This document shows, in pieces, positions 15,351-30,903 of a stretch of 34,606 nucleotides of DNA. Under the pieces are notes generated by a model. The model was not told where the DNA came from. It did not search any database and saw only the letters and a list, made by a program, of their open reading frames with translations. The position numbers were made by a program, and so were the translations under genes. Position 1 is the stretch's first letter. Every line of letters begins with the position of its first letter. The stretch spans positions 1 through 34,606 of the forward strand of contig JAIOYV010000074.1 of assembly GCA_021740905.1 (NCBI GenBank), read 5' to 3'. This DNA is from Bacteroidales bacterium. Its GTDB lineage: Bacteria > Bacteroidota > Bacteroidia > Bacteroidales > M50B96.

Positions 15351-15815
15351 CTACCCCATTTTGTCGATGGCCTTTTTAATTTCGGCTTCCAATTTTTCGG
15401 GTTTTGTTTTGGCGTACATAAAGGCATCTGTGGTTAGGTTCACCTTTTTATCGCTACCCACAATAAGTAAAGTTTGTCCTGAAATTTCGAGCTCTTCGAT
15501 CAACTTTTCGTTGCCTTCCTCTTCAATGTTGATGGATAAAAAAGTGATTTTTCCATTTTTTACTTTTTCAGCATAAAGCTTGTCCAATGCTTTTTGGGTT
15601 TCACTTTCAACTGCCTGGCAAGTAGCGCATCGGCGGGTGTTATGGAAGTAGTACACGGTGATCTCGCCTTTTTCAACCGAAGTTTTTTTTGCCGATTCAC
15701 AAGGTACACCCTTTTTGCTACCGGTGCATTTCGGGTTTTTACTACATTGTCCGAATGAATTAAACGAAAACAGCATAAATAAGATGCTAAACGAAAGGAT
15801 TACTAATTTTCTCAT
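15351..15815 (-). CDS. ArsF-like exported thioredoxin-fold protein (left cassette)
   Basis: This 154-residue protein has a signal peptide (about 1-22, ending near FNSFGQ), a Cys-bearing spacer CSKNPKCTGSKKGVPC, and a thioredoxin-like fold. The motif YYFHNTRRCATCQAVE carries a CxxC pair, and ISGQTLLIVG follows later. This matches the Bacteroidota family annotated as the ArsF-like subunit of the ArsEF nitroaryl-arsenical reductase, a naming that comes from the Shewanella arsEFG locus; the activity has not been shown for this group. It overlaps the small thioredoxin gene by 4 bases (ATGA), so the two are translationally coupled. The paralogue at 18894 lacks the three-cysteine spacer. A simple periplasmic thiol-relay role is an equally fair reading. 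Confidence 0.8.
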   Translation of the reverse strand: MRKLVILSFSILFMLFSFNSFGQCSKNPKCTGSKKGVPCESAKKTSVEKGEITVYYFHNTRRCATCQAVESETQKALDKLYAEKVKNGKITFLSINIEEEGNEKLIEELEISGQTLLIVGSDKKVNLTTDAFMYAKTKPEKLEAEIKKAIDKMG

Positions 15816-16060
15816 AAGCTAAAGTTTAATGGCATTAATATATTGGTTAACTCTTTTTCAGTGGGTACACGGCCTTTTAATACCACTTGCCCATCAATAA
15901 CAATGGCTGGTGTCGAAATAATATTGTAACTCATAATCTCAACAATGTCTTCCACTTTTGTGATGTTGGCATCAAGCTTATTGTGATCGACTACCTTTTG
16001 GGTCAAGGCATAAAGTGTTTTGCAGTTGGGGCATCCGGGGCCAAGTATTTTTATCTCCAT
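15812..16060 (-). CDS. Small thioredoxin-like redox protein (left cassette)
   Basis: This 82-residue cytoplasmic protein belongs to the small redox-active disulfide protein 2 (MTH895-like) family. It has the active site GPGCPNCKTL close to the N-terminus and a cis-proline loop in IISTPAIVIDG. Such proteins often accompany permeases and ArsR regulators and pass electrons to metalloid-handling partners. A paralogue with the same start, MEIKIL, is at 18637. The gene has its own operator (16073-16100) between it and the arsR upstream, so it may be controlled independently of that gene. Confidence 0.88.
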   Translation of the reverse strand: MEIKILGPGCPNCKTLYALTQKVVDHNKLDANITKVEDIVEIMSYNIISTPAIVIDGQVVLKGRVPTEKELTNILMPLNFSL

Positions 16061-16072
16061 GATTAATCGTGT

Positions 16073-16102
16073 TTTTTGTTCGTAAAACTGCGAACAAAAA
16101 TA
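16073..16102 (-). promoter_or_regulatory. ArsR-type operator with overlapping -7 element (operator A)
   Basis: On the minus strand the core is GTTCGCAGTTTTACGAAC, a GTTCG-N8-CGAAC inverted repeat extended by T-rich and A-rich arms to 10 bp each. Directly overlapping it is TATTTTTG (complement of 16095-16102), a match to TAnnTTTG. It sits between the first arsR and the thioredoxin gene. Near-identical cores occur at 18249, 18587 and 17844. Confidence 0.75.
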
Positions 16103-16111
16103 AGAAAAATA

Positions 16112-16408
16112 TTATTGAAAGAAATTGGTCATGAGATTTTTAATTTCAGCCCAATTATCTTTGTTGATACAATACTTTATTTTTGGCGGATTAATTTCGC
16201 CCTGGATCAGGCCTGCATTTTTTAATACCTTTAAATGTTGCGACAAAGTTGATTTCGCAATCGGGAGGATTTCACTTAAGTCACCACTATAACAGCAACT
16301 TTGCTTTAACAAAAGCTGCAAAATATACAGCCGTACCGGATGCCCCATTGCTTTGGTGTACATGGCAATTTTCTTTTGTTCGGTCGAAATAATCTCGTTT
16401 GTATTCAT
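16112..16408 (-). CDS. ArsR/SmtB-family transcriptional regulator (left cassette)
   Basis: This 98-residue winged-helix regulator shows ALKNAGLIQG-type recognition features (PIAKSTLSQHLKVLKNAGLI) and a vicinal cysteine pair C38-C39 (QSCCYSGDL), plausible ligands for As(III) or Sb(III). A longer reading back to 16489 would add a hydrophobic segment, but it runs into the neighbouring gene's terminator and past a promoter-like box at 16427. The start MNTNEII at 16408 is therefore preferred. It is about 70% alike by eye to the regulator at 18271 and is followed by operator A. Repression that is relieved on metalloid binding is the family norm. Confidence 0.9.
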   Translation of the reverse strand: MNTNEIISTEQKKIAMYTKAMGHPVRLYILQLLLKQSCCYSGDLSEILPIAKSTLSQHLKVLKNAGLIQGEINPPKIKYCINKDNWAEIKNLMTNFFQ

Positions 16409-16426
16409 ATTTTCTGTTTTGATGCG

Positions 16427-16434
16427 CAAATGTA
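16427..16434 (-). promoter_or_regulatory. Candidate -7 element for the left arsR
   Basis: On the minus strand this reads TACATTTG (TAnnTTTG), 19 bases before the chosen start codon. The GTTCG-N8-CGAAC operator is not found here, so autoregulation of this copy is not supported. Confidence 0.45.
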
Positions 16435-16480
16435 CAAACATAAACCCTAAAAGGGCTACTATTCCGATTCCCAAAAAATA

Positions 16481-16517
16481 AGAAGCCATCCTGCATAAAA
16501 TTAGTGGGATGGCTTCT
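16481..16517 (-). terminator. Terminator of the cytochrome gene
   Basis: AGAAGCCATCC (16481-16491) pairs perfectly with GGATGGCTTCT (16507-16517) around a 15-base loop. On the minus strand the stem is followed by TATTTTTTGG. It lies 40 bases after the cytochrome stop codon. Confidence 0.75.
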
Positions 16518-16556
16518 CAGTTAGTAATGAAAAAATATGCAATAATTGAAAAGGAA

Positions 16557-17681
16557 CTAAATTTTCATCATACTCTTGGTCAATGTTTTATGTCCAACCC
16601 TCATTCGATAAACATACATTCCCGACTTTGCTTTTTGCCCCATTACATCTGTACCATCCCATTCCACAGAATGGCGACCCATATTATACTGCTCATCGGT
16701 GATGATAGTTTTAATATGTTGTCCATTAAGATTGTAGACATCGATAGTTACTTTTGATGGCTTTGCCAGTGAGAACTCTAAAGTTGTTTCTGAACCAAAC
16801 GGATTTGGAAAATTCTGCTTAATTGCAAAATTGTCCTGGGAATTATCAAATTCAGCCACACTAATTGAATGAGGATCGGCACCGTGACACTGAACACAAT
16901 CTTGCTTTACAGCTACATTGTCAACAATCCCACCGCCACCATGACAGGCATTGCAACTTGCAATAGTAGCTGGAGGAACATAAGCTGCCACAAAAGTACC
17001 GGCAAAATGGGCATTCAGCAATTCGACAGTTTTTGCTGCTACATCGCCAGCTACTCGGGCACATCGCTCCTTTCTTTCGTTGGAGCCAACACCGAAATTT
17101 GCCACATTGCACCACTCGGTAACAGATATATGACATAGGGGAGAACCACAAGCATTTTGATCCAATGTCATATCATGTGTAGTATTGCCAAACTGATGGG
17201 TTGTTGCATAGGTATTACTTATGGTAGTAGGAAATTGAGCTTGAGTGTACCAACCATATAATTCGTTAATTAAAATATCCGAATCAGCTTTCTCGCAAAC
17301 AAGCGCAATGGCTGCTCCACAACCTATTAATGTACCACATAAAGTTCCCCAACCAACACCGCCTCCATGTCCAAAAATCATCATTTTTGTTGGAAATTCT
17401 GCGTAAGTGCTTCCCACAGAAGTGCCTTGCAAGGCAGTGACAATAGCATCAAATGCACCTGCAGAACATGCATATCCGGCCCAGAAATTATCATGGCCTA
17501 AAATCCGTACTGCTTCTGGATCCAATGTGGCATAGGGCCACGGCCAGGCAGTTTTTGAGAACCCTTCAGCATCAACTTTTTTACTGTTCAACATGCCAAC
17601 ACCCATTACACCGGCAGTAACTCCGGCAGTAATAATAGCCGATTTCTTGAAAAAGTCATTACGTGTAATCTTTTCTTTCAT
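16557..17681 (-). CDS. Exported split-Soret-like dihaem cytochrome c with T9SS sorting domain
   Basis: This 374-residue protein starts with a Tat-like leader (TRNDFFKKSA, only one Arg of the usual twin pair). A domain of the C_GCAxxG_C_C type follows (about 50-215), with C72, C115, C121, C129, C178, C183 and C191. Two haem c motifs come next, C243-NAC-H247 and C262-VQC-H266. The end (about 284-374) is a T9SS type A domain (NFPNPFGSETTLEFSL ... GMYVYRMRVG). The first two parts match split-Soret cytochromes c; the sorting domain implies secretion to the cell surface. It sits between two diverging arsR cassettes and is preceded by a possible operator (17844) and a 24-codon mini-ORF, suggesting metalloid- or redox-linked expression. 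The electron partner is unknown. Confidence 0.85.
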   Translation of the reverse strand: MKEKITRNDFFKKSAIITAGVTAGVMGVGMLNSKKVDAEGFSKTAWPWPYATLDPEAVRILGHDNFWAGYACSAGAFDAIVTALQGTSVGSTYAEFPTKMMIFGHGGGVGWGTLCGTLIGCGAAIALVCEKADSDILINELYGWYTQAQFPTTISNTYATTHQFGNTTHDMTLDQNACGSPLCHISVTEWCNVANFGVGSNERKERCARVAGDVAAKTVELLNAHFAGTFVAAYVPPATIASCNACHGGGGIVDNVAVKQDCVQCHGADPHSISVAEFDNSQDNFAIKQNFPNPFGSETTLEFSLAKPSKVTIDVYNLNGQHIKTIITDEQYNMGRHSVEWDGTDVMGQKAKSGMYVYRMRVGHKTLTKSMMKI

Positions 17682-17748
17682 AATTTTATTTGTTTTGGTT
17701 ACTATTAAAAATACTATTGTTTATTGTATTTATTTATATTGAAGTTTA

Positions 17749-17823
17749 CTATAAAATACCAGAAGGAGGAGCTCTTAAAGCAGCTGAAATTTTCCAACAA
17801 TATTGTTTAAAGAGTTTGTACAT
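17749..17823 (-). CDS. Candidate 24-residue peptide ORF upstream of the cytochrome gene
   Basis: From ATG (complement of 17821-17823) the frame reads 24 codons to TAG. The peptide starts MYKLFKQYCWKIS and ends AALRAPPSGIL, with one Cys, one Trp and an Arg-Ala-Pro-Pro-Ser-Gly motif, a composition unlike random AT-rich DNA. AGG precedes the ATG closely. It begins 21 bases downstream of the possible operator D and ends 68 bases before the cytochrome start on the same strand, so it could be the first gene or a leader peptide of that transcript. I do not recognise the family. Confidence 0.4.
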   Translation of the reverse strand: MYKLFKQYCWKISAALRAPPSGIL

Positions 17824-17843
17824 CCTAAAATTGTTAGTTCGTC

Positions 17844-17861
17844 ATTCGTAAAAATACGAAT
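17844..17861 (-). promoter_or_regulatory. Probable ArsR-type operator before the mini-ORF/cytochrome unit (operator D)
   Basis: On the minus strand it reads ATTCGTATTTTTACGAAT, a TTCG-N8-CGAA inverted repeat closely like operators A-C but with the outer G/C replaced by A/T. TATTTTTA inside it is an imperfect TAnnTTTG. It lies 21 bases upstream of the mini-ORF. Confidence 0.5.
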
Positions 17862-18241
17862 TATAATAATATGAAGTTCAAATTGTAGTAGATACCTGTA
17901 GTATCCATTTGGGAGTGTTAGTAATTCGAAATTTGGCATAAATAATTTATATTATTAAATACTCAGATTATTAGTAATATATGAATAATACCAAAATAAA
18001 TATGGTAGGAATTCTATGTTTTAATATGTTGCAAAACATAATTATTTCATAAAAAGATAATGATGTACCATTTATTGCAACAATATCCTTGTTTCAACTT
18101 ATTTAATAAATAAAAATGAGGGAGAGCTTCCCACCTTTATTTAATACAAATTCAAATTACTGATAATATGATACATACATTCAATATCTATTTTTCTGTA
18201 AAAAATAGAATGATTCATAGTATGAATTATGGACTATTTAA

Positions 18242-18266
18242 TATCTTTGTTCGACTTTTATCGAAC
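18242..18266 (+). promoter_or_regulatory. Promoter and operator of the right arsR (operator B)
   Basis: TATCTTTG (18242-18249) matches the -7 consensus and shares its last G with GTTCGACTTTTATCGAAC (18249-18266), a GTTCG-N8-CGAAC inverted repeat. The operator would cover the transcription start, consistent with repression by the ArsR encoded 4 bases further on. Confidence 0.75.
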
Positions 18267-18270
18267 TGAA

Positions 18271-18570
18271 ATGAAGATCAGTGATATTTATACAGAAGAT
18301 CAAAAAAAGATTGCACGATACGCGAAAGCCCTTGGGCATCCTCTTCGGATTTATTTGCTTGAATTGCTTTCACAGCAAGCTTGTTGCTATAGCGGCGATT
18401 TAACCGAGGAGTTGCCCATTGCTAAATCTTCCCTTTCTCATCATCTTAGCGAACTAAAAAATGCAGGTCTTATTCAAGGCGACATCGAAGGCCCAAAGAT
18501 TAAATATTGTGTTAATATGGAGAATTGGAAAGAAGCACAGGATTTATTTCAATCATTCTTAAAAATTTAA
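18271..18570 (+). CDS. ArsR/SmtB-family transcriptional regulator (right cassette)
   Basis: This 99-residue winged-helix protein is closely related to the regulator at 16112-16408. The cysteine pair C38-C39 (QACCYSGDL) and the recognition helix region PIAKSSLSHHLSELKNAGL are both kept. An upstream in-frame ATG at 18229 would place the promoter and operator inside the gene, so MKISDIYTED at 18271 is the chosen start. Its own operator B overlaps the promoter and operator C lies just after the gene, so it likely represses itself and the downstream redox/efflux genes until metalloid binds. Confidence 0.92.
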   Translation: MKISDIYTEDQKKIARYAKALGHPLRIYLLELLSQQACCYSGDLTEELPIAKSSLSHHLSELKNAGLIQGDIEGPKIKYCVNMENWKEAQDLFQSFLKI

Positions 18571-18586
18571 AAAAAATTTATAGAAT

Positions 18587-18608
18587 ATGTTCGCATTTCT
18601 ACGAACAT
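18587..18608 (+). promoter_or_regulatory. ArsR-type operator between arsR and thioredoxin gene (operator C)
   Basis: ATGTTCG (18587-18593), 8 bases, then CGAACAT (18602-18608); the core GTTCGCATTTCTACGAAC differs from operator A at only two positions. Its location between arsR and the thioredoxin gene is the same as operator A in the left cassette. No good -7 box is seen here. Confidence 0.7.
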
Positions 18609-18636
18609 CGAACTTATGAACAAATACAACAAAATT

Positions 18637-18873
18637 ATGGAAATTAAGATTTTAGGTACAGGTTGCCCTAAGTGCAAAGCTCTTGAAAAGGCAACACGCG
18701 AAGTGGTTGAACGAAACGGGATTTATGCCATCATCTCGAAAGTAGAAGACATTATGGATATTATGCAATACGATGTGATATCTACGCCTGCATTAGTTGT
18801 GAACGAAAAGGTAGAAATAAAAGGCCGTATCCCTTCCGAAGAAGAAATTAAAAGAATTTTAAGTAAATATTAA
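18637..18873 (+). CDS. Small thioredoxin-like redox protein (right cassette)
   Basis: This 78-residue protein is the paralogue of the left-cassette thioredoxin: active site GTGCPKCKAL and cis-proline loop VISTPALVVNEK. I start it at MEIKILG (18637) by comparison with that paralogue; an in-frame ATG at 18616 would add seven residues (MNKYNKI) and cannot be excluded. Proteins of this size are cytoplasmic and keep partner disulfides reduced. It leads the series thioredoxin, ArsF-like, CcdA/ArsG-like, ArsP-like, which together could feed electrons across the membrane and export reduced arsenicals. Confidence 0.87.
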   Translation: MEIKILGTGCPKCKALEKATREVVERNGIYAIISKVEDIMDIMQYDVISTPALVVNEKVEIKGRIPSEEEIKRILSKY

Positions 18874-18893: not shown

Positions 18894-19304
18894 ATGAAAC
18901 AAATTGGTAGGTTCAGTTTAGCCTTTGTGCTACTATTTACAGTGTTTTCGTGCTTGGCACAAGAAAACCATCAGCAAATTTCACCTAAAGTTGAAGTCTA
19001 TTATTTTTACTTTACCCAGCGCTGCAATACTTGCATTTCGGTTGAAGAGAATGCAAAACTGGCAGTCGAATCTTTATTTCCCGATCATGTAAAAAAGGGA
19101 GAATATATTTTTAAAGGGATTAATCTCGATGAAAAAAGTAGCGATGAAATTGCCAGGAAATTAAAAATTGGTGGACAAACATTAATCGTAGTGAGTGGCG
19201 ATAAAACTAAAGACATTACAAGCGAAGGTTTTATGAATGCCCACAACCTTGACAAAATGAAAGCGGAAATCAAAAAAGCAGTTACTGAAGTTTTAAAAGG
19301 TTGA
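18894..19304 (+). CDS. ArsF-like exported thioredoxin-fold protein (right cassette)
   Basis: This 136-residue protein has an N-terminal export signal ending in VFSCLAQ, which could be read either as a lipobox (Cys20) or as a signal peptidase I site. The mature part carries YYFYFTQRCNTCISVE with a CxxC pair and ends with KAEIKKAVTEVLKG, matching its paralogue at 15351. The family is named after ArsF of the arsEFG nitroaryl-arsenical system, but the reaction is not proven here. Its stop codon lies 5 bases before the permease start, which suggests that the exported thiol protein and the permease act together. Confidence 0.8.
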   Translation: MKQIGRFSLAFVLLFTVFSCLAQENHQQISPKVEVYYFYFTQRCNTCISVEENAKLAVESLFPDHVKKGEYIFKGINLDEKSSDEIARKLKIGGQTLIVVSGDKTKDITSEGFMNAHNLDKMKAEIKKAVTEVLKG

Positions 19305-19309
19305 TTTAT

Positions 19310-20011
19310 ATGGAATTCCTACAAAATATTTTAGAAAATACCCAGTATTCGTTTGTCACTGCCCTGGTATTGGGTTTGATGACAGCCATAAGCCCCTGCC
19401 CATTGGCAACGAATATTTCGGCCATCGGGTTTATTAGCCGCGATTTAGAAAATCGCAACAGGGTATTTATCAATGGGCTTGTTTATACTTTAGGAAGGGT
19501 AATAGGCTACACGGGCCTGGCATTTATCCTTTTTCTTGGAGCCGATCAAATGAACATCTCTTTGTTGTTTCAAGGTTGGGGCGAAAAAATCCTGGGTCCC
19601 TTGTTGATTTTGATCGGCCTTTTTATGTTGGACATAATCAAGCTTAAAATACCAGGTTTTTCTGGCCTTACCGATAAAATGGGAGAAAAAAGCAAAAGGA
19701 GCTATTTGAGTACCCTTCTTTTAGGTGTGGTGTTCGCCCTTGCTTTTTGTCCATATAGCGGCGTGCTTTACTTTATGATGCTGATCCCCATGACCATAGC
19801 CAGTGCCAGTGGGTTATACCTGCCTGTAATTTATGCTATTGCCACAGGGATACCGGTAATTATTTTTGCCTGGTTGCTGGCCTTTGCAGTGGGTAATGTT
19901 GGTAAATTATACAACCATATCAAAACCTTCGAGTTTTGGTTTCGTCGGGTTGTATCGGTACTTTTTATTGGTGTGGGCATTTATTATGTCATTATCATTT
20001 TTGTTTTGTAA
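19310..20011 (+). CDS. CcdA/DsbD-type membrane protein, ArsG-like permease
   Basis: This 233-residue integral membrane protein has about six hydrophobic segments and the paired cysteines of the CcdA fold, C30-P (AISPCPLATN) and C147-P (LAFCPYSGV). CcdA-type proteins pass reducing equivalents from cytoplasmic thioredoxin to exported thiol proteins. The ArsG subgroup, defined in the arsEFG locus, is described as an efflux permease for trivalent aromatic arsenicals. Next to the exported ArsF-like CxxC protein both readings fit, and electron transfer to that protein seems the simpler one. ATG 19310 is preferred over an overlapping TTG at 19301. Confidence 0.85.
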   Translation: MEFLQNILENTQYSFVTALVLGLMTAISPCPLATNISAIGFISRDLENRNRVFINGLVYTLGRVIGYTGLAFILFLGADQMNISLLFQGWGEKILGPLLILIGLFMLDIIKLKIPGFSGLTDKMGEKSKRSYLSTLLLGVVFALAFCPYSGVLYFMMLIPMTIASASGLYLPVIYAIATGIPVIIFAWLLAFAVGNVGKLYNHIKTFEFWFRRVVSVLFIGVGIYYVIIIFVL

Positions 20012-20056: not shown

Positions 20057-21379
20057 ATGGAATTTAAAAAAGAAATAAAAATCCTGTTTTGGATGATCGC
20101 TGTATTTCTTGGCATTTTCTTTCTTCCCATCGACAGCACCGTGTTCAAAACAGCAATTGATGCCACACTCGATTTGGCTAAATGGTATGCGCAAGAACAT
20201 GTAATTCTATGCTTGTTGCCTGCTTTTTTCATTGCTGGTGTAATATCGGTATTTGTAAGCCAGGGAGCAGTAATGAAATATTTTGGGGCGAAAGCAAAAA
20301 AATGGGTAGCCTATACGGTTGCTTCTGTCTCAGGGACTATTTTAGCGGTATGCAGTTGCACTATCCTACCCCTGTTTTCCAGCATTCATAAACGAGGTGC
20401 AGGATTAGGGCCGGCTATTGCTTTTCTGTATTCGGGACCAGCTATCAATATCTTAGCAATTATCCTTACTGCCCGGATACTGGGATTTGAAATGGGAATT
20501 GCCCGTGTAATTGGTGCCGTTTTATTTGCCGTTGTTATTGGTTCGGCAATGTCGTTTATTTATAGAAAAGAAGAAAAAGCTAAACGTGAAGAGCAAATCA
20601 ATTTCCCCTACGTACCCGAGAAGCGCCCAATGTGGAAAACTGCATTCCATTTCTTTGCTTTGGTGCTAATCCTGGTTTTTGCCAACTGGGGAAAACCAGG
20701 TGAAGGTGTAACGAGTGGTGGTCTTTATTGGTTGTGGGCCTATAAATGGTATATCACATCTGTCTTCGGATTACTTCTAATTTATTCGTTGATATATATT
20801 TTAAAGCTTAAGTGGCAACATGTGATACTTGCAGCAATTGTTACTGCCGTTGCCGCATTGCTTACTTCTTCTCCATTAATTCCTATGGTTGTTGGGATTG
20901 CCGGTATTAGCATGATTACGCTAATTGATAAAACCGATCCTGACAATAAAGAGTGGACTATTTCTACCTGGGATTTTGCCAAACAAATTATGCCTCTTTT
21001 GGCCATTGGGGTTGTAATTGCCGGTTTCTTGCTTGGTTCGACACACGACAATACAGCAATTGCCGGGATTATCCCCAATGAGTGGATTGCAAAACTGGTT
21101 GGAGGAAATTCTGTGTTTTCCAATTTTTTCGCCTCCATTGTTGGGGCATTTATGTATTTCGCCACACTTACCGAAGTTCCTATTTTGCAAGGATTAATGG
21201 CTGCCGGAATGGGCAAAGGCCCTGCCCTGGCTTTACTGTTGGCTGGTCCATCACTATCATTGCCCAACATGCTTGTTATACGAGGGATAATAGGTACACA
21301 AAAAACAACAGTCTATGTATTGCTTGTAGTTGTTATGGCCACAATTACAGGCTTAAGTTACGGTGTAATAATGGGATAA
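20057..21379 (+). CDS. ArsP/YraQ-type (PF03773) permease
   Basis: This 440-residue permease has about ten membrane segments and the repeated family signatures CSCTILPLFSSIHKRGAG with a GPAINILAI partner, and later LTEVPILQGLMAAGMGKGPA. Cysteines C99 and C101 lie in the first signature, as in ArsP, where cysteines near this place bind trivalent methyl- or aryl-arsenicals. PF03773 also contains permeases of unknown substrate, so organoarsenical export is inferred from the arsR, ArsF and ArsG-like neighbours. It lies 45 bases after the CcdA-like gene in the same operon. Confidence 0.88.
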   Translation: MEFKKEIKILFWMIAVFLGIFFLPIDSTVFKTAIDATLDLAKWYAQEHVILCLLPAFFIAGVISVFVSQGAVMKYFGAKAKKWVAYTVASVSGTILAVCSCTILPLFSSIHKRGAGLGPAIAFLYSGPAINILAIILTARILGFEMGIARVIGAVLFAVVIGSAMSFIYRKEEKAKREEQINFPYVPEKRPMWKTAFHFFALVLILVFANWGKPGEGVTSGGLYWLWAYKWYITSVFGLLLIYSLIYILKLKWQHVILAAIVTAVAALLTSSPLIPMVVGIAGISMITLIDKTDPDNKEWTISTWDFAKQIMPLLAIGVVIAGFLLGSTHDNTAIAGIIPNEWIAKLVGGNSVFSNFFASIVGAFMYFATLTEVPILQGLMAAGMGKGPALALLLAGPSLSLPNMLVIRGIIGTQKTTVYVLLVVVMATITGLSYGVIMG

Positions 21380-22737: not shown

Positions 22738-22769
22738 TGTTTAATGTCGTATGTTTGCGACATTAAACA
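22738..22769 (+). promoter_or_regulatory. Operator enclosing the -7 element of the third arsR
   Basis: TGTTTAATGTCG (22738-22749) and its exact complement CGACATTAAACA (22758-22769) enclose exactly the 8 bases TATGTTTG, a perfect TAnnTTTG -7 element. The start codon lies 8 bases later. A repressor bound here would cover the promoter core. The half-site TGTCG differs from the GTTCG of operators A-C but the N8 spacing is the same. Confidence 0.85.
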
Positions 22770-22777
22770 TTTACTCT

Positions 22778-23110
22778 ATGCAAAACAATAAGTTTAGTGA
22801 GTTTGAGGCAGATCAACAGCAACTTGCAGAGTTTGCAAAAATTTTATCCCATCCGGCAAGGATTGCAATTATTCAATTGTTGGCCGAAAAAAAAGAAATC
22901 AGGACAGGAAACATTTCAGACGACTTGCCCATTTCAAGGACTACTGTGTCGCAGCATTTGAAAATTTTGAAGGATGCAGGGATTATCCAGGGAACAATAG
23001 AAGGGCTTAAAATTCATTATTGCCTTGATATTCAAAAGCTAAATGAAATCCGAGAGAAATACAATACCTTTCTCGAAAGTACCATTTCCGATTTTATGTG
23101 TAATTGTTAA
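22778..23110 (+). CDS. ArsR/SmtB-family transcriptional regulator (arsC-acr3 operon)
   Basis: This 110-residue winged-helix regulator has the recognition region PISRTTVSQHLKILKDAGI. It lacks the CC pair of the other two ArsR proteins but has a C-terminal C-N-C (FMCNC) and one further Cys in HYCLD, so its metalloid site would be built differently. The start MQNNKFSEF (22778) lies after the promoter-operator; the in-frame ATG at 22751 lies inside the operator and is rejected. It heads an operon of six genes ending in acr3 and probably represses it. Confidence 0.9.
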   Translation: MQNNKFSEFEADQQQLAEFAKILSHPARIAIIQLLAEKKEIRTGNISDDLPISRTTVSQHLKILKDAGIIQGTIEGLKIHYCLDIQKLNEIREKYNTFLESTISDFMCNC

Positions 23111-28611: not shown

Positions 28612-30903
28612 TCATATCTGCCCTTCATCCAGCAACCAATATTCAAGGATCGAAAAAAGTTCATCGGGTTTGATGGGCTTCGACAGATAATCGTTCATCC
28701 CGGCATCAAGGCATTTTTCACGGTCGCCTTTCATGGCATTGGCTGTCATGGCTACTATTGGTATCTTAGCCATCTTTAACGTTTCGCGGATATAACGGGT
28801 AGCCGTAAGCCCATCCATTTTGGGCATTTGCACATCCATCAATACAAGGGTGTATTCTTTATCCTGCATGGCCTGAACCGCCTCGGCCCCATCGCCCGCC
28901 ACATCTACTGAAATATCTGTTTTTTTCAACAGGGCTGTTGCTACGCGCTGGTTGATGTAATTATCCTCGGCAAGCAAAATCCGTGTTGTATCGGGCAGCG
29001 ATTGCAAGCGCAACACATTGGAAAGTTCCTTTTTCTCCTCCACTTTTTCATCCGAAGATTCTGTCGCCCCCATCAATTCCACTATGTTGTCGAACAGCAC
29101 CGACTGTTTAACAGGTTTGGTCAGATAAGCAATGTTGCCGAGTTCTTTAAACACATTTTTTTCGCCCCAGGCCCCAACCGATGTCAATACTATGGCTGGT
29201 ATCTGGCTTTTTTCCCTTACGGCCTTCAGCAAATCAAACCCGCTCATCACCGGCATTTGAAAATCGGTAATAATAATGTCATATTTTTCTTTCGATCCTG
29301 CCTGGAATGACTGCAATGCCTCTATGGCAGTTTCAAAAATATCGGCTACAAAACCAAAACTTTTGAGGGTTTCCTGTAAGATTATCCGGTTGGTTTTATT
29401 ATCATCAACAGCAAGCACTTTCAGGCCATGTATCTTATCAGGGATTTTTAACCTAACATCATTATTTTTTTCCGACCTTTTGAAACGAGCAGTGAAAAAG
29501 AATGTACTTCCTTCGCCTACTGTGCTTTTTACCCATATTTCACCCTTCATTAAACCTACCAGGTTTTTGCAAATGGTCAGTCCCAGGCCGGTACCACCAT
29601 ATTTTCGGGTCGTGGAAGTATCAGCTTGCGAAAAGCTCTCGAAGATAGCTTGCTGTCGTTCTTCAGGAATTCCAATGCCTGTGTCCTGAACAGATATTAG
29701 GAATTCCAGTTCGTCCTCTTCCAAAGGATGGCTTTTGGGAATGTGGGAGGAATTATTATAAACCGTAATATTTACTTCTCCCTTATCGGTAAATTTCAGG
29801 GCATTGCTAACCAGGTTGATAATCACCTGGCGCAACCTTACTGGGTCACCTATTAGAAATCTTGGGACCTCATTCTTGATCAATACATTTAACTCAAGCC
29901 CTTTGTCCTCCACTTTTTGAATCACCACATCGGAAACGCTTTCTACAATTTCGTACATATTGAAATCTATCGCCTCCAATTCCAGTTGACCTGCTTCAAT
30001 TTTGGAGAAATCGAGAATATCGTTGATGAGGCTAAGCAGGACATCGGCACTGTCCTTGGCCATTTTCAGGAACTGGTATTGCTCTGAATTCAAATCGGTG
30101 GGCAGCACGAGTTCCAACATCCCAAGTATTCCGTTCATAGGGGTGCGGATTTCGTGACTCATGTTGGCCAGGAATTCACTTTTGGCACGATTGGCCTGCT
30201 CGGCTTCGAGCTTGGCTTTTTCGATGGCCGTCGCTTTGTCTTCCAATTCGCGATTCAAAGCAACTACCCCCCGATTGGTTTCTTCAAGTTCGTGGTTAAT
30301 AGCCTCGATCTGGCTGTTGCGTTCCTGCAACTGTTTCAGCAAAAATAAAAGTTCGTTGTTTTGCGAATTGATGGTATCGACCATGCTGGCATCGCCACGC
30401 TCGATTGTTTTTTGAAAGGCTGTCTGGATTTCAGTTAAGCGGTGCTTTTCAAGAGATGAAGAAAACCGGGGAAGCCATTTGGCGGCGGTGATGGTGGTGC
30501 CTTTCCCTATTTTTGAATGAATATCGAAATCGTCCATCAAGCGTTGCGAACCGCTTAGGCCAACCCCCATACCTGTTTTTGAATGATACTTGCCCGATTG
30601 GATTAAATCGAGGTCGCTTATGCCCTTTCCTTTATCTGAAAAAACTATGACAACCCCATCGGAAGCCCCCTTTCTGGTAGCAATAGAGAAAACGACTTTG
30701 CCGCCTTGTGCATGTTCGATAATATTCCGCGACAATTCCGAAATTGCCGTACCAATCCTAATGCAGGTGGTTTTGTCGAACTGCAATTCACGCGCCAGCA
30801 AGGATCCAAGGTTGCGCGATCGGACCACATCCGACTCGAACTGCACCTGGATTTCGCCTACTTTATGCAGTGTAGCGGATGATAAGAACGGTAGCATCGT
30901 CAT
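28612..30903 (-). CDS. Hybrid histidine kinase with N-terminal RsbT-like ATPase domain and two receivers
   Basis: This 763-residue protein has, in order: an RsbT-like HATPase domain (about 10-145, with [15 protein letters not shown] and [16 protein letters not shown]), a coiled coil (150-240), HisKA (H250 in [13 protein letters not shown]), HATPase_c (N box [10 protein letters not shown]1 DTGIGIP, G2 GGTGLGL) and two receiver domains (D547 and D690). There is no membrane segment, PAS or Hpt domain. It overlaps the upstream phosphatase gene by 41 bases and closes a stressosome operon. The first domain looks like a docking or switch module recognised by stressosome partners, so the kinase is the probable output arm in place of a sigma-factor cascade. 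Confidence 0.9.

Follow-up and report, generated by a model that had tools for sequence, protein, structure and literature searches.

Four near-identical palindromes of the form TTCG-N8-CGAA were found among arsenic-related genes of a Bacteroidales bacterium (GenBank assembly GCA_021740905.1; GTDB lineage M50B96), on contig JAIOYV010000074.1, of which a stretch of 34,606 nucleotides (the window) was analyzed. These sites are very probably operators of repressors of the ArsR1/ArsR2 type, both encoded in the same cluster, and bound repressor would block transcription there until it is released by arsenic. Comparison with relatives gives good support to the view that they represent a type of operator widespread in Bacteroidota and lie ahead of arsE-arsF(-arsG) units. 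The cluster consists of a left unit (arsR1, arsE1, and arsF1) and a right unit (arsR2, arsE2, arsF2, arsG, and an ArsP_1-type permease gene), with a split-Soret-like cytochrome gene between them (Table 1). A sequence-only reading of this DNA had proposed a local ArsR regulon from the four cores, all of which are present as it gave them; its positions 17844 and 18249 are correct, while 16073 and 18587 are off by 5 and 2 bases.

Conservation of the site next to related arsR genes

Loci for comparison were picked by protein similarity only. ArsG matches occur in 28 of 395 genomes of the class, the window's own included, and 28 stretches were taken from the others; an ArsR-alignment search of named genomes contributed the best 80 of at least 498 relatives. 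Outside the window, 104 distinct genes of the ArsR1/R2 type, in 100 loci, make up the counted set, all scoring 100 bits or more against ArsR1 or ArsR2, and 14 lower-scoring or ArsR3-type genes, including the arsR3 of the window, were set aside and viewed separately. TTCG-N8-CGAA lies within 150 bp upstream of 82 of the 104 genes (shuffled mean, 0.27; maximum, 2), although the rows are interrelated, so that 82 genes are not 82 independent events. Spacings of N4 to N7 and N9 to N12 were found upstream of 0 or 1 of the 104 genes each, as were four other half-site words at N8. A site also follows the arsR stop codon within 130 bp in 63 of 103 cases (shuffled mean, 0.18; maximum, 2), mostly preceding arsE (44) or arsF (13), and both window units likewise carry a site just after arsR. 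Because an operator would thus lie between arsR and arsE in both units, the effector genes could be driven separately from the repressor. In this ArsR family, then, an operator-like site adjoins the regulator's own gene or operon, and arsE is among the next six same-strand matches in 94 of the 104 relatives. One locus (L072) is arranged differently: arsR and arsE come behind arsF and arsG, and there are two strict sites, the first 2.2 kb ahead of arsR and the second following it.

The same geometry is found in a published footprint. For ArArsR of Arsenicibacter rosenii SM-1, the accessible text of the report gives TTTTATCGTAATATTGCGATCACAATC from DNase I footprinting and electrophoretic mobility shift assays (PMC11868830); rewritten as ATCG-TAATATTG-CGAT, a reading not given by its authors in that text, this is an N8 palindrome like those of the window. 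Conservation at exactly N8 and a footprinted Bacteroidota ArsR with the same layout are the reasons for which we regard the assignment to ArsR-subfamily repressors as well supported.

Position of the sites relative to the predicted promoter

TAnnTTTG is described, in the available part of the source, as the -7 element used by the primary sigma factor of Bacteroidota (PMC7366714). In 41 of the relatives' 82 upstream sites, the 8-bp spacer is exactly TAnnTTTG, and in 28 others the box (with or without one T) directly precedes the site; TTTG only precedes it in 2, and 11 have neither. The window sites at 16078 and 18249 are of the box-before-site type, with TAnnTTTG adjoining, and each box shares one G with its 18-mer, in agreement with the overlap previously noted at two sites. 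The left arsR promoter had been said to lack the site, and there is indeed no strict copy; it does, however, contain a degenerate one at 16423 to 16438 with the box inside, and an equally good site arose in 1 of 2,000 shuffles of that gap.

These positions suggest a mechanism in which a winged-helix ArsR dimer would sit on TTCG-N8-CGAA and, with the -7 box often forming the spacer in relatives or else abutting the upstream edge of the site, would keep RNA polymerase off the promoter. Binding of trivalent arsenic to Cys39 and Cys80, and perhaps Cys38, would then release the repressor, switching on arsE-arsF in the left unit and arsR2-arsE2-arsF2-arsG-permease in the right unit.

Distribution in the window and genome

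The window contains five copies of TTCG-N8-CGAA against 0.74 expected (largest number in 100 shuffles, 3). The fifth copy, at 30352 to 30367, lies inside a histidine-kinase gene (28612 to 30903) and is therefore coding, yet it has a good profile score. A genome scan with the 18-bp motif, which the sequence-only reading had proposed as a check, found RTTCG-N8-CGAAY 24 times in a 6.54-Mb genome (97% complete), compared with 9 occurrences of the reversed pattern. Of the 24, the four in the window are the only ones outside long open frames, any frame that they overlap being short (114 codons at most); the remaining 20 all lie in stop-free frames of 212 to 833 codons (frames rather than annotated genes). 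Since copies outside long open frames occur in this cluster only, the term local regulon fits. The looser 16-mer TTCG-N8-CGAA is common, with 212 copies in the genome, and the outer bases and position therefore matter.

A profile was built from 76 relatives' sites, and 150 of 5472 first-look candidates were scored with it in the genome. Among the candidates scored, the best four distinct places were 16076 (E, 0.0046), which is the best match in the genome, 17844 (0.031), 30351 (0.25), and 18588 (0.34). Across the 395 genomes, a search at E 5e-4 with strict filters gave 10 matches, 7 of them in ArsG loci already seen and none in the window's own genome. Downstream of two of the matches (L215 and L216) lies an ArsR-like gene, and another (L213) gave no match to any query.

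Half-site letters and the recognition helix

The half-site letters track a short motif in the repressors, in a stretch that we take, as in the family at large, to open the recognition helix. Where both site and helix could be read, A/S-K/R/N/L/P-S/A-T/S helices go with TTCG/CGAA, A-Q-S/A-T with ATCG/CGAT (5 of 5), and S-R-T-T with half-sites that begin with G (8 of 8). A mixed TTCG/CGAT site accompanies one A-H-S-T gene, and two more Q-type genes have degenerate sites only. The helix table has 120 rows, in 10 of which the helix was unread by the pattern. When the 395 genomes were searched with ATCGTANNWTTGCGAT, matches were obtained in 126 genomes, against about 10 for the reversed control. 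The 30 loci returned, which are part of these matches, hold 31 ATCG-N8-CGAT sites. An ArsR-like gene follows 24 of these within 200 bp, genes for arsenite methyltransferase follow 2, and nothing recognized follows the other 5. Q is found in 23 of the 24 ArsR-like genes after ATCG sites (for L238, a fragment was judged by eye; L244 could not be read), and K, R, or N in all 14 after TTCG sites (L107 and L215 by eye), 9 of these 14 loci having already been counted in the arsR-based set. In L218 and L220, the arsenite methyltransferase genes lie directly behind their ATCG-N8-CGAT sites, which suggests that arsM is a separate regulon member.

The pairing of A-K/R/N-S-T with TTCG, A/S-Q-S-T with ATCG, and S-R-T-T with GTCG or GACG is possibly new. 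A FastTree tree shows only 4 changes of half-site class, with 1 (starred branches) or 3 (all branches) independent pairs and a sign test p of 1; as independent changes are few and descent confounds the comparison, the pairing is a correlation rather than a demonstration. The evidence leaves us evenly divided over a broader Bacteroidota ArsR code, in which the -7 element of the primary sigma factor, as the present or former spacer, would hold the spacing at 8 bp, the helix-start motif would set the outer letter, and several insulated circuits would coexist in one genome. If this code is real, the window holds two insulated arsenic channels within 7 kb, a repressor's helix predicts the operator it reads, and exchanging a single helix residue or a few of them would be expected to shift a repressor between operator types. 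It would then explain how adjacent ars units in one genome escape cross-talk, allow a direct test of DNA choice by ArsR/SmtB proteins, and provide a source of orthogonal sensors. The operator type itself supplies a sequence rule for locating arsenic-responsive promoters across Bacteroidota, including the gut genera Bacteroides and Phocaeicola. In the literature titles and abstract openings searched, neither TTCG-N8-CGAA, nor a -7 box inside ArsR operators, nor such a helix code was described; the novelty of the operator type and of the code is provisional.

Points against and alternative explanations

Several observations weigh against an operator role for all four sites. The profile from relatives misses 18249, where the arms fit and the spacer ACTTTTAT does not, and the coding site at 30351 outranks the one at 18589. 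An alternative in-frame ATG at 18229 would place site 18249 inside the arsR2 coding sequence; 18271 is preferred as the presumed start by comparison with relatives. No strict upstream site was found for 22 of the 104 relatives; 12 of these carry the strict site immediately behind arsR, 5 show ATCG/CGAT ahead of it, and 5 have neither; with 12 showing only the site after arsR, the weak-before, strong-after layout of the left unit recurs. Counted raw across the class, TTCGTANNTTTGCGAA (48 in 395 genomes) is no more frequent than the reversed control (about 52). Raw counting was dropped as a test of function, and position relative to arsR was used instead, the signal lying in position and not in number. 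The A. rosenii authors, in the accessible text, assign their footprint to the -35 and not the -7 element (PMC11868830). Site 17844, finally, cannot be checked by conservation, because the cytochrome behind it has no relative in the comparison.

That the palindromes are chance or coding-type repeats is scarcely credible: the 16-mer is indeed frequent in coding DNA, as its genome-wide count shows, but the placement of the four sites outside long frames, the exact spacing, the conservation before related arsR genes, and the published footprint of the same geometry all argue otherwise. Action through another regulator with a similar palindrome is very improbable, given that the site precedes 82 of 104 related arsR genes and that its arms vary in step with the helix motif of the ArsR. 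ArsR1 and ArsR2 are 60% identical, with near-identical recognition helices and the same half-sites, and they likely share the sites. It is unlikely, though well within reason, that each mainly serves its own unit and that the common half-sites reflect descent; the helices differ slightly (AKSTLSQHLKVL versus AKSSLSHHLSEL), the profile misses the arsR2 operator, whose spacer is unusual, and the arsR1 promoter has a degenerate site only. Against such a division, the half-sites are identical across all four window sites (TTCG/CGAA), and loci such as L060, L063, L070, L074, and L075 have sites before and after a single such arsR found by the query search.

The trx1 and trx2 of the sequence-only reading are arsE1 and arsE2. 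The cytochrome is the least supported target, site 17844 itself being what argues for its membership in the regulon. Cytochrome relatives were absent from 59 other genomes at E 1e-20, and the 24-codon open reading frame between site and cytochrome has no NCBIfam family and no convincing match in the collected loci. An inverted repeat (AGAAGCCATCC...GGATGGCTTCT) with a T-rich run behind it on the minus strand, at 16481 to 16517 between the cytochrome gene and arsR1, is likely a terminator, as judged by eye and unscored. Site 17844 could instead be a remnant of the promoter that the arsR of the left unit originally had, moved away by insertion of the cytochrome gene and taking no part in its control, which we consider possible but somewhat doubtful. 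The cytochrome is missing from the 59 relatives and from 30 searched stretches, the repeat and T-rich run separate it from arsR1, and an identical 16-bp core stands just before arsR in L146. Yet site 17844 is intact and ranks second among the distinct profile matches of the candidates scored, and arsR1 has a degenerate promoter site of its own.

A third ArsR gene

Downstream in the window, arsR3 is preceded by a palindrome of its own; RTGTCGTANNTTTGCGACA occurs once in this genome and in 1 of 335 genomes, namely, this one. Its different palindrome is the reason for which arsR3 is probably outside the predicted ArsR1/ArsR2 regulon and insulated from both. The region also holds ABC-type genes; its arsC-like gene (138.6 bits) is under the cutoff of 174.3, and acr3 (445.2 bits) is over that of 282.8. 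Among the ArsR3-type rows, including that of the window, 10 of 12 have G-starting N8 half-sites by script, one (L137) by eye, and one (L146) has none. The pairs are GTCG/CGAC, GCCG/CGAC, GTCG/CGTC, GTCG/CGGC, or GACG/CGTC, the last being that of L137, for which a TTCG label was rejected because it came from a distant TTCG site, the near sites being TGACG/CGTCA. Elsewhere in the same genome (G000:C128; L083, 8205 to 8516, minus strand), another arsR with arsC and acr3 matches is preceded by TGACG-TATATTTG-CGTCA.

Table 1. Predicted sites, promoter boxes, and genes of the arsenic cluster in the window
Feature	Coordinates	Strand	Context or evidence
Putative operator GTTCGCAGTTTTACGAAC	16078-16095	minus	17 bp before arsE1, directly after TATTTTTG box
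Putative operator ATTCGTATTTTTACGAAT	17844-17861	minus	Upstream of 24-codon open reading frame and split-Soret-like cytochrome gene
Putative operator GTTCGACTTTTATCGAAC	18249-18266	plus	Directly after TATCTTTG box, 4 bp before presumed arsR2 ATG (18271)
Putative operator GTTCGCATTTCTACGAAC	18589-18606	plus	In arsR2-arsE2 gap
-7-like box TATTTTTG, internal arsE1 promoter	16095-16102	minus	Sequence; consensus TAnnTTTG (PMC7366714, available part)
-7-like box TATCTTTG, arsR2 promoter	18242-18249	plus	Sequence
Degenerate operator TTTG-TACATTTG-CGCA, arsR1 promoter	16423-16438	minus	Box inside site; 2 mismatches to TTCGTANNTTTGCGAA
arsR3 palindrome TGTTTAATGTCG-TATGTTTG-CGACATTAAACA	22738-22769	plus	Sequence; 12-bp arms, spacer = TAnnTTTG
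arsF1	15351-15815	minus	NF040494, 114.7 bits (cutoff, 60)
arsE1, thioredoxin-like	15812-16060	minus	TIGR00412, 109.6 bits (cutoff, 62)
arsR1, ArsR/SmtB repressor	16112-16408	minus	NF033788, 59.4 bits (cutoff, 55); PF01022, 53.7 (cutoff, 22); Cys38-Cys39 and Cys80
Split-Soret-like cytochrome c, type IX secretion system sorting tail	16557-17681	minus	NF047622, 167 bits (below equivalog cutoff, 400); TIGR04183, 34.4 (cutoff, 23)
24-codon open reading frame (MYKLFKQYCWKISAALRAPPSGIL)	17752-17823	minus	Between site 17844 and cytochrome gene
arsR2, ArsR/SmtB repressor	18271-18570	plus	NF033788, 58.9 bits; PF01022, 43.1 bits; Cys38-Cys39 and Cys80
arsE2, thioredoxin-like	18616-18873 (start maybe 18637)	plus	TIGR00412, 112.4 bits
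arsF2	18894-19304	plus	NF040494, 90.8 bits
arsG, efflux permease family	19310-20011	plus	NF040495, 306.3 bits (cutoff, 200)
ArsP_1-family permease	20057-21379	plus	PF03773, E 3.6e-70
arsR3	22778-23110	plus	Upstream of arsC-like gene (25825) and acr3 (26120); without Cys pair

The predicted ArsR1 and ArsR2 sensor site

Both ArsR1 and ArsR2 score above the cutoffs of the HTH_5 (PF01022) and metalloregulator HTH (NF033788) models, and the Cys38-Cys39 pair previously ascribed to both paralogues is present in each. Cys39 and Cys80 are invariant in a 12-row alignment and fall at the places of Cys41 and Cys82 of ArArsR, as judged via a relative (L076) with cysteines at 41, 43, 80, and 82. The accessible text on ArArsR reports release by As(III) via Cys41, Cys80, and Cys82 and by MAs(III) via Cys41 and Cys82 (PMC11868830); the full set of three is not matched in ArsR1 and ArsR2, which have Lys78 at the Cys80 place. 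The sensor would thus be a trivalent-arsenical site that may favor organic arsenicals, consistent with the arsEFG genes. A PDB sequence search returned distant relatives only, the best being 2jsc (E, 2.2e-8).

Comparison with known systems

The right unit resembles the ArsEFG system in that its arsE, arsF, and arsG all score above curated cutoffs (Table 1); it differs in having an ArsP_1-type permease gene after arsG, and the left unit has arsE and arsF without arsG. ArsEFG (NF040494, NF040495, and TIGR00412) is, by the names of the models, an arsenical system, for which reduction and export of aromatic arsenicals would be the expected activity. The ArArsR operator, as far as the accessible text describes it (PMC11868830), is likewise that of a Bacteroidota ArsR repressor of an ars operon, with an 8-bp-spacer palindrome, CG in each half-site, and a spacer resembling a -7 box, as in the window-type sites. 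In contrast to the TTCG/CGAA of the window, its half-sites are ATCG/CGAT, the first base being A and not T; its sensor lacks the extra Cys38 and has Cys80 where ArsR1 and ArsR2 have Lys78, and its operon, arsR-arsM-arsC, is unlike the window units. The ArsR of Escherichia coli R773 is also an ArsR/SmtB repressor of an ars operon, but the Cys32-x-Cys34-xx-Cys37 type of site described for it in the same text (PMC11868830) is not found in ArsR1 and ArsR2, which have CCYSGD. The bifan network of ArsR1 and ArsR2 in Pseudomonas putida, in the part of the report available (PMC7994332), similarly joins a pair of arsR paralogues with their promoters within a single genome, although it belongs to another phylum, whereas the window units are adjacent and hold arsE, arsF, and arsG genes.

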